DNA from: a candidate division KSB1 bacterium
GTDB lineage: Bacteria > Zhuqueibacterota > Zhuqueibacteria > Residuimicrobiales > Krinioviventaceae
NCBI GenBank assembly: GCA_034521575.1
Contig: JAXHMJ010000005.1
Span: forward strand, 868,001-932,000
Length of the DNA stretch: 64,000 bases
Direction: 5' to 3'
Shown one piece after another: positions 47,280-52,743 of the stretch (its first letter is position 1; each line of letters starts with the position of its first letter). The notes beneath the pieces were generated by a model. That model ran no database searches, was not told where the DNA came from, and saw only the letters and a list, made by a program, of their open reading frames with translations. The translations under genes and the position numbers were made by a program.

Positions 47280-47528
47280 TTAATAAAAAAATAGCAAAAT
47301 TGCAAACAATTTATGTTTTACTGAACGCCGGATAAAATCGGGCTCCAGACTGTAGTTCAGCTGTTCCGAACCAGGCCAACCGCACAGTTGAAACCATTCC
47401 TCATTGCCAGAAGCCCAACTCAAAACTGCTGAAACAAAATTCGTCTCACCGGGATGGTCTCCAACCAGATCAAATCGACCTCCACGCACAATCCGATATA
47501 CATGCCGGGTTCCACAAAAGTCATTCAA
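47280..47528 (-). CDS. Small unrecognised reading frame downstream of the polyferredoxin
   Basis: A TTG-started frame of 82 residues overlaps the polyferredoxin stop by 8 bases. It contains a protein-like stretch (GGRFDLVGDHPGETNFVSAV, EEWFQLCGWPGSEQLNYSLE) but matches no family I know. The start codon and overlap are only suggestive, and it may be a fragment or chance frame. Confidence 0.22.
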   Translation of the reverse strand: MNDFCGTRHVYRIVRGGRFDLVGDHPGETNFVSAVLSWASGNEEWFQLCGWPGSEQLNYSLEPDFIRRSVKHKLFAILLFFY

Positions 47529-48573
47529 AATGCGCAGTTAATTCACTGTTGCAGTCATTGGCCTGCACCAAAAGCGGAACAAAAAAGACAAACAGCCAGA
47601 TTCTAGTCATCAGACTTTTCCTGTTTTCGTGAAAATGATATTGCCCTTTTCGACAGTGATCCAGACATTCACCGCACATCAGACACTCCTGACAGTTCAT
47701 CTCGATATCCACACCAATAGCCAGCATTTTACATTGCCGTGAACAGGCTTTGCAAGCCGTGCAATCGGCTCCGGCAGCCAGCCGCAGAGCGCCGGGTAAT
47801 TTGCCAATCCAGCCCAGAACCAATCCGACCGGACAGGCGCCGCGGCAAAATGGCCGGTATATGAACAATGAGGTGATCAGCAAAAGCGCAAGCAGTACAA
47901 GACTGATGGTGTTGCCGGCCATCAGATTAAAGATGACTTTGAACGGGTCATAATGAATAAATTCGTTGGTTCGGGTGATGATCAACTGTGTAACCAGGGC
48001 GGCAAACAAAACAATTTGTGCAATTTTTAGCGAGCGCTGAATGCGCGAGGACTGAAACCGCTTGACTCCGGGCGCCCGATATAAAAATTCCTGCACGGCG
48101 CCGAGATGGCATACCCATCCGCACCAGACCCGGCCAAAAACATAGGTCAATGGAATCAGACCTAAAAACCACAACGGCTGATACCAGCGAACCGTTTCCC
48201 CCAGCCCGGCAAGCACGCTGTTTTGAAAGCTGGAAATCATACAGGGACAACCGCCGTTGAGAAAACCGAAAAAAATCACTGCGCCCAATAAGAACAACGG
48301 GCGCAGTGTCCGCAGCGCTGAAAATCGGACAGCAACACCGGCTGCAGCGGTCAAACCCAGCGCTATCAATGTATATCGCAGTCCGCGCGGAATCCCCGCA
48401 TCATGCGCGCAATCCCCTGCACACCCGGCGGTAGACGTATCAACCTGCTGCTCAAAATCCCCAAACTCTGCATCCGACAACTCTTGAAATTCATCGGCAA
48501 ACGCTGTCTGCATCCCTCCCAGGACAAAGCCCACGATCAGCGCCGGAATCCACGGCCGACCTCTCCGTATCAT
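47521..48573 (-). CDS. NosR/NapH-like membrane polyferredoxin
   Basis: 350 residues, start after GAGGATGAC. A leader ends in FADE. A periplasmic stretch follows with TAGCAGDCAHDAG, then several membrane helices with GGCPCMISSF, VWCGWVCHLGAVQEFLY and FCRGACPVGLVLGW. Two 4Fe-4S clusters close the protein: CTACKACSRQCKM and CQECLMCGECLDHC. Such proteins carry electrons between membrane quinols or cytoplasmic donors and periplasmic reductases. There is no FMN-binding domain. The small secreted protein at 48583 lies 9 bases upstream, so the two are one operon. The partner reductase is not in the window. Confidence 0.8.
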   Translation of the reverse strand: MIRRGRPWIPALIVGFVLGGMQTAFADEFQELSDAEFGDFEQQVDTSTAGCAGDCAHDAGIPRGLRYTLIALGLTAAAGVAVRFSALRTLRPLFLLGAVIFFGFLNGGCPCMISSFQNSVLAGLGETVRWYQPLWFLGLIPLTYVFGRVWCGWVCHLGAVQEFLYRAPGVKRFQSSRIQRSLKIAQIVLFAALVTQLIITRTNEFIHYDPFKVIFNLMAGNTISLVLLALLLITSLFIYRPFCRGACPVGLVLGWIGKLPGALRLAAGADCTACKACSRQCKMLAIGVDIEMNCQECLMCGECLDHCRKGQYHFHENRKSLMTRIWLFVFFVPLLVQANDCNSELTAHFE

Positions 48574-48582
48574 GTCATCCTC

Positions 48583-48951
48583 TTATTTGATTTGTATTTC
48601 ACCGCTGCCGGCGGCGCCGCCTTTATCACAGCTGCGTACCGCTTTCAGGACAGCTTTGCTATCAGCATTTTTTTGCACTTTGGCTTTGACCAACCGCACA
48701 TAATCATATTCAGACACTTTTTTCCAGGGTGTGGCGCCCAGCAGTTCCAGACCGTCGCCGGTGAATTGGGTGGCTTTAATTCCATGCGGACAATTCCGGT
48801 GTGTCAGATGAACATCCACCTTGAAAATTACTTCATCACCGGTATGATAGTCTTTTTTGGATTCCCCGTGGACGCTTATTTTGATATCACAAGCGGCTGC
48901 GGCTTGTATCAGCATAAATATAACCACAAAAACAACATATTTTTTCATCAT
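48583..48951 (-). CDS. Small secreted protein partnered with the polyferredoxin
   Basis: ATG 48951 follows AGAGAGGAAC. The signal peptide is KKYVVFVVIFMLIQAAAAC. The mature part of about 100 residues is beta-rich: CDIKISVHGESKKDYHTGDE, VIFKVDVHLTHRNCPHGIKA, LVKAKVQKNADSKAVLKAV and SCDKGG. Three or four cysteines and HRNCPHG could bind metal or form disulfides. I do not recognise a family. Its position as first gene of the operon suggests it works with the polyferredoxin in a periplasmic redox step. Confidence 0.6.
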   Translation of the reverse strand: MMKKYVVFVVIFMLIQAAAACDIKISVHGESKKDYHTGDEVIFKVDVHLTHRNCPHGIKATQFTGDGLELLGATPWKKVSEYDYVRLVKAKVQKNADSKAVLKAVRSCDKGGAAGSGEIQIK

Positions 48952-49181: not shown

Positions 49182-50852
49182 ATGCGTACAGCAAAATTTT
49201 GGGTTATCATTATGATTATTTCACTGCTTGGGGGATGTTCTCAAGGTCCTTTTCCCAACCGTAAAACGGTTTCTTATGTAGAAGGAGAACTGGCCAAACT
49301 GGCTCCTGTTCAGATCAACAGCGACCTGTCCGGTTTATCAGACGGAGATGTTGAGGCGCTGAAACAGCTGCTGCAGGCCTCTCATCTCATTGATTCCCTG
49401 TTTTTACTGCAGGTCGATCCTGAAAATCCGGGTCTGCGGGCGGAACTGGTGGATGCCGGTTATCAGAAGCATCTGGAACTTTTTGACATCATGTTTGGAC
49501 GCTGGAACCGGCTTGTTAATGACGAACCGTTTCTGGATCACCATGAAAAACCGTTGGGCGCCGGATTCTATCCGACGGACATGAGCAAAAAAGAATTTGA
49601 AACCTACATTCAAAATCACCCGGACCAGGAAGAAGCATTTACCAGCGAATTCACCCTGATCCGGCGGGACAGCAGCGGCCTGAAAGCCGTGCCCTATCAC
49701 GTTGCTTTTCCTAAAGTCCGACGTATCGCCGATCATCTCAAAAATGCCGCAAACGCCACAGATGATCCGAGTTTATCCCGCTTTCTCAATTTAAGAGCGG
49801 ATGCTTTTTTGACCGATGATTATTATGAAAGCGATATGGCCTGGATGGACCTGAGCGGTGATCTTGAAATCGTGATCTCGCCCTACGAGGTGTACGAAGA
49901 CGCATTGTTCAATTACAAAGCCGCTTACGAAGCGTTCCTCTGCCGGGTGGATCATGAAGAAAGCCAAAAGCTAAAGAATGTTGCACAGTACCTCAATGAT
50001 ATGGAACGGCATTTGCCCATACCGGAAAAACATAAAAATTACGACCGCGGTTCATCATCGCCGATCAAAGTGGTTCAGGAACTGTACGCCGCCGGTGACA
50101 CCAAAGCCGGAATTCAAACCACGGCGTTCAATCTCCCCAATGACGAACGTGTACGCAAAGCCAAAGGCTCGAAAAAAGTGATGCTGAAAAACATCGCTCG
50201 CGCTAAATTTGATAAATGCTGGATTCCGATCGTCAACACCATATTGGCGGAAGAACCGCTACAGAATGTTTCGTTTGAGGCGTATTTTAATCACGTGCTC
50301 ATGCACGAGATGAGCCACGGCATCGGTCCCGGGCTTATTACGCTCGGGAATGGCAAAGAAACCTCTGTAGCCAAAGAATTGAAAGAACTGTATTCCACCA
50401 TAGAAGAATGCAAAGCCGATGTACTCGGAATCTATAATGTAAAATATATGCTGGATATGGGCGTCTTTCCGCCGGATCTGCAGAACTCCATGTACGCCAG
50501 TTACCTGGGCGGTATGTTTCGTTCCATCCGGTTCGGCATTGACGAAGCCCACGGCGGCGGTGTGGCCATTCAGTTCAATTTTTTCATGGAAAAGGGCGCC
50601 TTTTTCGTCAATGAAAACGGAAAACTGGACCTGAATGCTGAAAAACTGTATCCCGCCATTGTGAAGCTGGCTGAAAAGGTTCTGATGATCGAGGCCACCG
50701 GGGATTACAAGGCCGCCCGGGACTTTATCAAGGAATACAGAGTTATGACACCCGTCATGCAGGGATATATTGATGAATTGCAGGACGTACCGGTTGATAT
50801 CCGTCCGTCTTTTGATCTGGCGGAAATACTCGGAATGGCTGAGAACAAGTAA
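49182..50852 (+). CDS. Lipoprotein metallopeptidase, M49 (dipeptidyl-peptidase III)-like
   Basis: 556 residues, lipobox SLLGGC (Cys19). The zinc site is HEMSHGIGPG (H375, E376, H379) with a second motif TIEECKADVLG (E408 or E409). These correspond to the HExxGH and EECRAD motifs of DPP III, but here the first is a plain HExxH. GAGFYPTDMSKKEFE and FVNENGKLDL are shared with bacterial DPP III-like proteins. It should remove short peptides at the envelope. The oligoendopeptidase gene follows after 10 bases, so both work on exported peptides. Confidence 0.82.
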   Translation: MRTAKFWVIIMIISLLGGCSQGPFPNRKTVSYVEGELAKLAPVQINSDLSGLSDGDVEALKQLLQASHLIDSLFLLQVDPENPGLRAELVDAGYQKHLELFDIMFGRWNRLVNDEPFLDHHEKPLGAGFYPTDMSKKEFETYIQNHPDQEEAFTSEFTLIRRDSSGLKAVPYHVAFPKVRRIADHLKNAANATDDPSLSRFLNLRADAFLTDDYYESDMAWMDLSGDLEIVISPYEVYEDALFNYKAAYEAFLCRVDHEESQKLKNVAQYLNDMERHLPIPEKHKNYDRGSSSPIKVVQELYAAGDTKAGIQTTAFNLPNDERVRKAKGSKKVMLKNIARAKFDKCWIPIVNTILAEEPLQNVSFEAYFNHVLMHEMSHGIGPGLITLGNGKETSVAKELKELYSTIEECKADVLGIYNVKYMLDMGVFPPDLQNSMYASYLGGMFRSIRFGIDEAHGGGVAIQFNFFMEKGAFFVNENGKLDLNAEKLYPAIVKLAEKVLMIEATGDYKAARDFIKEYRVMTPVMQGYIDELQDVPVDIRPSFDLAEILGMAENK

Positions 50853-50862
50853 AGGAGAACTC

Positions 50863-52743
50863 ATGAAAACACTAACGGGAATTGCAATGATACTATCTGT
50901 ATTATGTATGTCACAAAACTTGTCCGCACAAACCAGAGAACGCAAAGACATTGATAAAGCCTATACCTGGAATCTTACCGATATCTATGAAAGCGATGCA
51001 GCCTGGCAGGACGCCAAACAGGAACTGGCGGCTGAGATGGATAAAATCACCAAATTTGAGGGCAAACTCTCTTCTTCCGCACAAACGCTTTTGCAATGTC
51101 TTGAATTCAGCAGCAAACTGGATAAAGACCTGACCCGACTGTATGTCTATGCCATGCAGAAATCCGATCTCGACACCCGCGTATCCGAATACCAGGCTAT
51201 GAAACAGGAACTCGAACAACTGGCAACGCAAATGGGATCCATGGCCTCGTATATCGAACCCGAAATCCTCAAAATGGATTCATCCCAAATACTCAACTTT
51301 ATCAATCAGAAAAAAAAATTAAAAGTTTACGCCTTTTACCTGAAAGACCTGCTGCGCAAAAAAGAACATCGTTTGTCTCAAAAAGAAGAAAAAATAATGG
51401 CGGAAGCGGGACTGTTGACCGGCGGCCCGCAGCATATCTACAGTATTCTGTCCAACGCCGATCTCCCCTATCCAACCGTCACGCTGAGTGACGGCACGGA
51501 AGCCAAACTGAATGCAGCCGGCTATGCCAGATACCGCTCCTCGAAAAACCGCAGCGACCGGGAACTGGTGTTTAATTCCTTTTTTACAGCCATGAAGGAT
51601 TTCAGCAGCACATTCGGCGCCTCTCTGGCCGGCAATATTAAAACCGATCTGTTCAACATGCGCGCCCGCAATTACGAATCCTGTCTGCAGGCCGCTCTGG
51701 ACCGCAACAACATTCCGACCGAGGTGTATACCAGCCTGATCAACAATGTCACGGCCAATCTGGAATCTTTTCACCGTTATCTGGATATCAAACGGCGGAT
51801 GCTCGGCGTAGACACCCTAAAGTACAGCGATCTGTATGCCCCGACTGTCAAGAACGTTGATCTGGAATACTCGTATGACAAAGGCAGGGAAATCGTCCTG
51901 GAATCCCTGGCTCCGCTCGGAGATGAGTATCTGTCCACGGTTCGTCAGGCCATGGACGAGCGCTGGATCGATGTATACCCGACTCCCGGAAAACGCTCGG
52001 GCGCCTATTCCAGCGGCAATGCCTATGACGTTCACCCTTTTATTCTCTTGAATTACAATGATCAGTACAGCGACGTCAGCACGCTGACGCACGAACTGGG
52101 TCATACCATGCACAGCTTTTACTCGAACAAAACCCAGCCGTATCCGTTAGCCGATTACTCTATTTTTGTCGCCGAAGTCGCCTCAACTTTTAATGAAGCT
52201 CTCCTGACAGAGTATATGCTGGACAAAATCAAGGACGACGACACGCGCCTGTCCCTGCTCATGGAATATCTGGACGGTCTCAAAGGCACCGTGTTCCGCC
52301 AGACTCAGTTTGCAGAATTTGAACTCAAAATTCACGAACAGGCTGAAAACGGTCAGGCCTTGACGGGTGAATCCCTGACCCAACTGTATGCAGATATTGT
52401 ACGGAACTATTACGGCCATGACAAGGGTGTTTGTAACGTCAAAGACCTTTACACCTATGAATGGGCTTATATCCCGCATTTCTATTATAACTTTTATGTT
52501 TACCAGTATTCAACATCTTTTTGCGCCTCCACAGCGCTGTCGGAAAAAGTACTGGCGGAAGAACAAGGCGCGCTTTCCAAATACATCCAGTTCATCTCAT
52601 CCGGCGGTTCGGATTATCCCATCGAACTGCTGAAAGCAGCCGGCGTGGACATGACCACGTCGGAACCGTTTGACAAAACCATGCAAAAGATGAACCGGGT
52701 CATGGACGAAATCGAGTCCATTCTGGAGAAAAAAGGAATATAA
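50863..52743 (+). CDS. pepF: Oligoendopeptidase F (M3B), exported
   Basis: ATG 50863 follows AAAGGAGAACTC, 10 bases after the M49-like stop. Of 626 residues the first 22 are a signal peptide (ILSVLCMSQNLSAQ), unusual for PepF, which is normally cytoplasmic. KAYTWNLTDIYESDAAW opens the PepF domain. The zinc motif is STLTHELGHTMHS (H410, E411, H414), followed by FVAEVASTFNEALL with the third ligand Glu. It should cleave peptides of roughly 7 to 17 residues in the periplasm. A strong terminator follows. Confidence 0.9.
   Translation: MKTLTGIAMILSVLCMSQNLSAQTRERKDIDKAYTWNLTDIYESDAAWQDAKQELAAEMDKITKFEGKLSSSAQTLLQCLEFSSKLDKDLTRLYVYAMQKSDLDTRVSEYQAMKQELEQLATQMGSMASYIEPEILKMDSSQILNFINQKKKLKVYAFYLKDLLRKKEHRLSQKEEKIMAEAGLLTGGPQHIYSILSNADLPYPTVTLSDGTEAKLNAAGYARYRSSKNRSDRELVFNSFFTAMKDFSSTFGASLAGNIKTDLFNMRARNYESCLQAALDRNNIPTEVYTSLINNVTANLESFHRYLDIKRRMLGVDTLKYSDLYAPTVKNVDLEYSYDKGREIVLESLAPLGDEYLSTVRQAMDERWIDVYPTPGKRSGAYSSGNAYDVHPFILLNYNDQYSDVSTLTHELGHTMHSFYSNKTQPYPLADYSIFVAEVASTFNEALLTEYMLDKIKDDDTRLSLLMEYLDGLKGTVFRQTQFAEFELKIHEQAENGQALTGESLTQLYADIVRNYYGHDKGVCNVKDLYTYEWAYIPHFYYNFYVYQYSTSFCASTALSEKVLAEEQGALSKYIQFISSGGSDYPIELLKAAGVDMTTSEPFDKTMQKMNRVMDEIESILEKKGI

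Follow-up and report, generated by a model that had tools for sequence, protein, structure and literature searches.

To our knowledge, the known outer-membrane electron conduits of Gram-negative bacteria rest on multihaem cytochromes. NapH has been proposed to oxidise quinol and to deliver the electrons to NapG (PMC5928378, available portion), and NapH-like proteins have been viewed as modular electron exits (PMC8238504, likewise in excerpt). A related protein, CcoG, is a cupric reductase that combines two 4Fe-4S clusters and Cu sites with an Ig-like periplasmic domain, whose role is given as unknown in the available part of PMC7558416.

The locus described here lies in a window of 64,000 nucleotides from a candidate division KSB1 bacterium (contig JAXHMJ010000005.1 of assembly GCA_034521575.1). 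It encodes a small exported cysteine protein (g1) and a membrane polyferredoxin (g2), and both open reading frames of this originally predicted pair were confirmed. Remains of a third gene (g3) follow, and in relatives a fourth (g4) may be present. The features, in window coordinates, are as follows.

48951-48583, minus strand: g1, an ORF of 122 aa, with its ATG at 48951 and its stop at 48583.
48574-48582, minus strand: the nine-base gap between g1 and g2, holding GAGG, a ribosome-binding-like sequence.
48573-47521, minus strand: g2 as an ORF of 350 aa, with its ATG at 48573, nine bases downstream of the g1 stop, and its stop at 47521.
47617-48573, minus strand: g2 proper, a NapH/NosR/CcoG-type membrane protein with a signal or anchor and an acidic periplasmic stretch containing C51/C55.
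47521-47616, minus strand: in-frame tail of the 350-aa ORF, outside the g2 of relatives, the last ~29 residues of which (from Met 47610) are the start of the g3 relic.
From 47610, minus strand: N-terminal piece of the g3 relic, signal peptide and mature start (MTRIWLF...NDCNSELTAHF), matched by tblastn with g3 rows at 47571-47524.
47403-47528, minus strand: internal piece of the g3 relic (NDFCGTRHVYRIVRGGRF...GETNF), 57% identical to the g3 of locus L036 over 42 aa.
47317-47409, minus strand: piece from the C-terminal third of the g3 relic, found by tblastn, with an in-frame stop.

In comparison to NapGH, g2 has the same NapH-type membrane module, with its two Cys motifs, and a 2x[4Fe-4S] domain at the C-terminus, and the g4 of relatives is, as NapG, a Tat-signal poly-[4Fe-4S] protein. 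However, g2 falls well below the NapH cut-offs (57.8 versus 213 bits for TIGR02163 and 56.1 versus 234 bits for NF007013), and the Tat-exported multi-[4Fe-4S] partner, although present in relatives, was not found in the window genome at E 1e-8 with the L036 g4 as query. Additionally, against the four clusters of NapG, g4 carries 7-12 motifs together with a lipobox, and g1 and g3 are without a Nap counterpart. The CcoG/RdxA/FixG cupric reductases would, on the predicted fold of g1, resemble the pair in joining an Fe-S membrane protein to an Ig-like periplasmic part, but here the predicted Ig-like part is a separate gene (g1) with its own Cys/His set, and the CcoG model is not reached (TIGR02745, 24.1 versus 316.7 bits). 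NosR (over the membrane region) and NapH are the best NCBIfam matches of g2, both far under their cut-offs. In contrast to NosR and RdhC (PceC), g2 is without a listed FMN-binding domain, and neither an N2O reductase nor a dehalogenase partner was seen in the regions examined. Porin-cytochrome conduits (MtrAB, Pcc) may be similar in that an exported protein with barrel-like features stands beside a multi-cofactor exported protein, but g4 would have Fe-S in place of haem: no multihaem c-type cytochrome and no ORF with at least two CxxCH motifs was found in the 11 g4-bearing loci, and CxxCH is absent from the g1, g3 and g4 proteins and occurs once in 2/36 g2 rows. Finally, the NapH-like flavinylation clusters (eLife 2021, PMC8238504) likewise use a PF12801 protein as electron exit, and DUF2271 proteins stand beside some of the present loci; however, g2 has no FMN-bind domain, the DUF2271 link is occasional, and g1, g3 and g4 go unmentioned in the available part of that paper. 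The parts of the module are of known kinds and their combination is absent from the family libraries searched. Likewise, no described module of this kind was found in the literature as judged from titles and abstract openings, which is weak evidence of absence, and none is mentioned in the available part of PMC11334425.

PF12801 (Fer4_5) matches g2 at 51 bits, above the gathering cut-off of 22, and the protein carries GGCPC, the membrane motifs CGWxC and FCxxxCP, and C-terminal ligand sets for 2x[4Fe-4S] (two CxxCxxCxxxC). The window copy retains 48/50 positions conserved in relatives and, as had been predicted, neither g1 nor g2 has a listed FMN-binding or reductase domain in Pfam. From hydropathy and charge, a simple estimate would have the N-terminal Cys pair and GGCPC facing the periplasm and the ferredoxin domain facing the cytoplasm. 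Of the predicted extra periplasmic cysteines in g2, GGCPC is conserved outside one subgroup, but the exact TAGCAGDCAHDAG is private to the window g2. TAGCAGDC was considered as a conserved motif and rejected, as it is not conserved as such among g2 rows. Of the 24 g2 rows that have CPC, 15 carry at least two Cys in the N-terminal stretch, a count that leaves out 12 further rows without CPC, some of them partial. The exceptional subgroup (L091, L092, L095, L097, L098 and L104) has GGPG in place of GGCPC, and therefore GGCPC is not essential there. The His of CGWxCH is replaced by Tyr in this subgroup as well, and in its loci g3 comes after g2 where the contig allows, with no g4 seen.

The g1 product is, in line with the original prediction, a small exported protein with an HRNC motif and no known family: neither Pfam nor NCBIfam gave a match, even at E 10, a PDB sequence search gave chance-like best matches and none that was meaningful, and a search of plasmid records gave no match. 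GAGAGG stands upstream of its ATG. Three Cys and one His are invariant (C20, H50, C53 and C107, numbered from the second Met at 48948), each being present in 32/33 core homologues with one gap each; the motif itself is H50 R51 N52 C53. The window copy retains 16/17 positions conserved in relatives. Signal cleavage is expected directly before the first invariant Cys (A|CDI), so that the N-terminal residue would be Cys. Among the homologues, residue -1 is A in 28 and S in 4 and residue -3 is mixed; either signal type is thus possible, and the first invariant Cys could be a lipobox Cys, as far as these residues indicate. A structure model (pLDDT 83) predicts an Ig-like beta sandwich, and a fold search with it matched Ig-like domains, among them those of pilin and adhesin, at Z of about 10, a likeness that speaks to fold only. 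No member of the aligned g1 set (A3) matches an Ig-domain Pfam model at E 1.

Among 60 related genomes, the window's own included, g1 occurs in three (the window genome, G015 and G017), and a strong g2 (E 7e-90 or better) is found in the same three only. In the phylum sample, 4/82 KSB1 genomes have g1, and each of these has g2 clustered with it. A collection scan returned five g1 loci, two from KSB1 (G015 and G017) and three from Bacteroidales, and g2 adjoins g1 in each. Additionally, g1 is present in 27 of 393 Bacteroidales genomes, and all 27 also have an orthologous g2. For this comparison, 76/393 genomes reach E 1e-30 for g2, and an E-value gap from 8e-50 to 4e-39 leaves 28 genomes on the strong side, which include all 27 with g1. 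In the 28th (G340), g2 runs off the end of a 5,871-base contig, and g1 may therefore just be absent from the assembly. The co-occurrence has a Fisher p of 7e-41 without correction for kinship, and this value is inflated by kinship among the genomes. The two genes are neighbours in 19 of the 27 genomes; in the other eight they lie on different contigs (six genomes) or a few kb apart (G147 and G222). Since g2 is present even in these eight, co-retention is independent of adjacency. A g1 without g2 was looked for in the 27 Bacteroidales and 4 KSB1 genomes and was not found, and g1 as a free-standing secreted protein was therefore rejected. These observations support g1-g2 as a conserved functional pair.

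The proposal that the two genes form a self-contained module is only partly upheld: the pair is conserved, but in many relatives g2 is followed by g3 and often then by g4 (L036, L038 and L039 have both), and g3 remains persist in the window. The g3 product is exported, about 400-480 aa long with a signal peptide, and without a Pfam or NCBIfam family (3 and 2 members tried). Most g3 C-termini end in an OMP-like, E-x-R-x-x-F-like strand, and two Cys are invariant, one just past the signal peptide (23/23) and one mid-protein (24/24). The structure model is poor (pLDDT 43), and a fold search with it gave nothing at E 0.001. Judged from these sequence features, g3 would be an outer-membrane barrel-like protein. 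In 12/12 rows, g4 starts with RR and carries a Cys between about residues 30 and 38, as in a Tat-signal, lipobox-bearing protein. The number of CxxCxxCxxxC motifs is 7-12 in 11 g4 rows, and L155, a cut copy of L203, has 6. Short g4-like proteins with two motifs each were seen in place of the full polyferredoxin in L085 (5274-5675, 133 aa) and L094 (6831-7160, 109 aa).

The occurrence of g3 and g4 indicates nesting of g4 within g3 within g1+g2. The g3 gene is present in 19/393 Bacteroidales genomes, all within the 28 with g2, and is below threshold in 9/28, including G168, which has a g3 fragment at a contig end. Similarly, g4 adjoins g3 in 11 loci and is missing from others, e.g. L090, L092, L095, L098, L100 and L104. 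All four genes occur together in two phyla, and their order is rearranged to g1-g4-g3-g2 in G076. Intact g3/g4 are missing from two of the four KSB1 genomes that have g1. Pair-only genomes comprise about 8/28 g2-bearing Bacteroidales plus the window genome and G015, and thus g1-g2 may also be functional by itself.

The window copy of this set is reduced: g1 and g2 look intact, g3 is decayed and g4 is lost. A genome search with the L036 g3 found pieces only, at 47403-47546 (E 1e-10) and, collinear with these, at 47314-47409 (E 0.17). The internal piece is in a different frame from the N-terminal piece, and the latter is fused to g2 by loss of the g2 stop, which is either real or an assembly indel. 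The C-terminal 29 residues of the 350-aa ORF were considered as an extra g2 helix, and this was rejected since they match the g3 start. A candidate g3 remnant in L035 of G015 was also rejected: the sole close match is the 3' end of g2 itself, in the reading frame of an L036 g3 ORF extended at its 5' end, and G015 therefore shows absence of g3 rather than decay.

Neighbouring genes vary among relatives. DUF2271 proteins adjoin g1 in L038, L101 and L087, with a T9SS-like tail that is over the cut-off in L101 and L087 and slightly under it in L038. The flavinylation motif [ST]GA[ST], taken from PMC8238504, is exact in L038 (SGAS) and L101 (TGAS) and near in L087 (TGVS); a similar DUF2271-like protein after g4 in L205 has no flavinylation motif. 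DUF2271 is mildly enriched in Bacteroidales genomes with g2 (10/28 versus 53/365 without, p 0.007), is over the cut-off in 2/7 module-bearing genomes, and was searched for in the window genome and not found. A DUF2271 flavoprotein as a fixed fifth member was rejected on the mild enrichment and the 2/7 count; these neighbours hint at a surface acceptor in some lineages, and no rule. In L101 (107-2552), g1 lies in a run with the DUF2271 protein, a DUF5777 barrel and a small one-CxxCH protein, and g2 is divergent. In L038, L085 and L094, an ArsP_1 permease stands beside a g1 paralogue, and one of these permeases is weakly like the SO_0444 Cu/Zn exporter. These paralogues keep only the middle Cys, lacking the His as well as the N-terminal and last Cys; with their permeases they directly follow g4 or short g4 (L038 10465-11863, L085 3816-5260 and L094 7103-8578). 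An ArsG-family transporter (NF040495, over the cut-off; L198 5043-5753) lies downstream of g2 in G383. The ArsP_1 and ArsG-family neighbours are a hint of metal or metalloid handling.

Overall, the observed gene content, co-occurrence, decay and motifs are most simply covered, for all four genes, by electron export from g2 to g1 and, where present, g4 and g3. Export of electrons by the module is likely; that g1-g2 is the core of such a module, with a full version leading via g4 towards g3 and a reduced version in the window, has about an even chance of being right. NapH-like g2 would draw on the quinol pool or a cytoplasmic donor and bring the electrons to the periplasmic face, where its dedicated partner may be g1, small and predicted to be Ig-like, with a metal, Fe-S or thiol site that could be formed by the three invariant Cys and the one His. 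Where the set is complete, g4 would resemble an enlarged NapG, as a putative Tat-exported lipoprotein of 7-12 predicted [4Fe-4S] sites, and would carry electrons towards g3 as the barrel-like end point at the outer membrane. We infer the direction of flow, the cofactors and, from the presence of g3 and g4, a possible crossing of the outer membrane. No substrate, donor or acceptor enzyme was linked to the module. Several observations speak against electron export: the g3 'barrel' is drawn from sequence features of a protein with a poor model and no fold match, DUF2271 is mildly enriched and was not found in the window genome, the CPC cysteines are lost in one g2 subgroup, permeases in a few loci point to metals or metalloids, and half of the KSB1 g1 genomes are without intact g3/g4.

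A stronger form of electron export, tentative and rather doubtful, is that the full g1-g2-g3-g4 set is a haem-free outer-membrane conduit, in which a NapH-like quinol dehydrogenase feeds the g4 [4Fe-4S] chain in or against a barrel and sometimes, beyond it, a T9SS-exported surface flavoprotein. If so, Bacteroidales and KSB1 would have an iron-sulfur counterpart of MtrAB, and the window would represent a lineage that no longer has the outer half. Such a conserved cytochrome-free set (inner-membrane Fe-S exit, poly-ferredoxin lipoprotein and barrel-like protein) would offer a haem-free route open to testing, candidate genes through which uncultured Bacteroidales and KSB1 might exchange electrons, and a function to look for in the g1 family, which is modelled in neither the Pfam nor the NCBIfam copies searched.

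The predicted Ig-like fold of g1, with its three Cys and one His, and the published CcoG description also fit a metal reductase pair, in which the Fe-S clusters of g2 would reduce Cu(II) or another metal ion and g1, as a detached Ig-like domain, would bind or pass on the reduced metal. The ArsP_1 permeases beside g1 paralogues, including the SO_0444-like one, and the ArsG-family transporter beside g2 in G383 favour this explanation as well. It is nevertheless unlikely, since g2 is far from the CcoG cut-off, the aligned g1 set is without an Ig-domain Pfam match, and g3 and the 7-12 clusters of g4 are left unexplained. Thiol-disulfide exchange, the second possibility raised in the original prediction, is quite improbable: dithiol electrons would pass from the N-terminal Cys pair or CPC of g2 to the g1 cysteines, like those from DsbD to its partners. 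The CPC and recurrent N-terminal pairs on the periplasmic side of g2, the invariant Cys of g1 and g3, and one ArsG/DsbD-like neighbour agree with such a relay, but the module showed no thioredoxin-like protein, one subgroup has lost CPC, 9/24 g2 rows are without two N-terminal Cys, and the first Cys of g1 could instead carry a lipid.

Alternatively, the window copy could be a decaying and functionless relic, with g3 broken, g4 lost, the g2 stop lost, and g1 and g2 not yet eroded. The g3 pieces, the read-through tail and the lack of a g4 match in the window genome (G000) are as expected for a relic. However, g1 and g2 keep nearly all conserved positions, and G015 and several Bacteroidales likewise keep g1-g2 without g3, which makes this explanation decidedly improbable.

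Elsewhere in the window, a TonB-dependent receptor (CarboxypepD_reg, Plug and barrel) is split into ORFs at 46546-45611 and 45677-44289 on the minus strand, which overlap in different frames and thus reflect a frameshift, real or of the assembly. On the plus strand, divergent from g1, are an M49-type metallopeptidase (49182-50852) and then an M3-type metallopeptidase (50770-52743).
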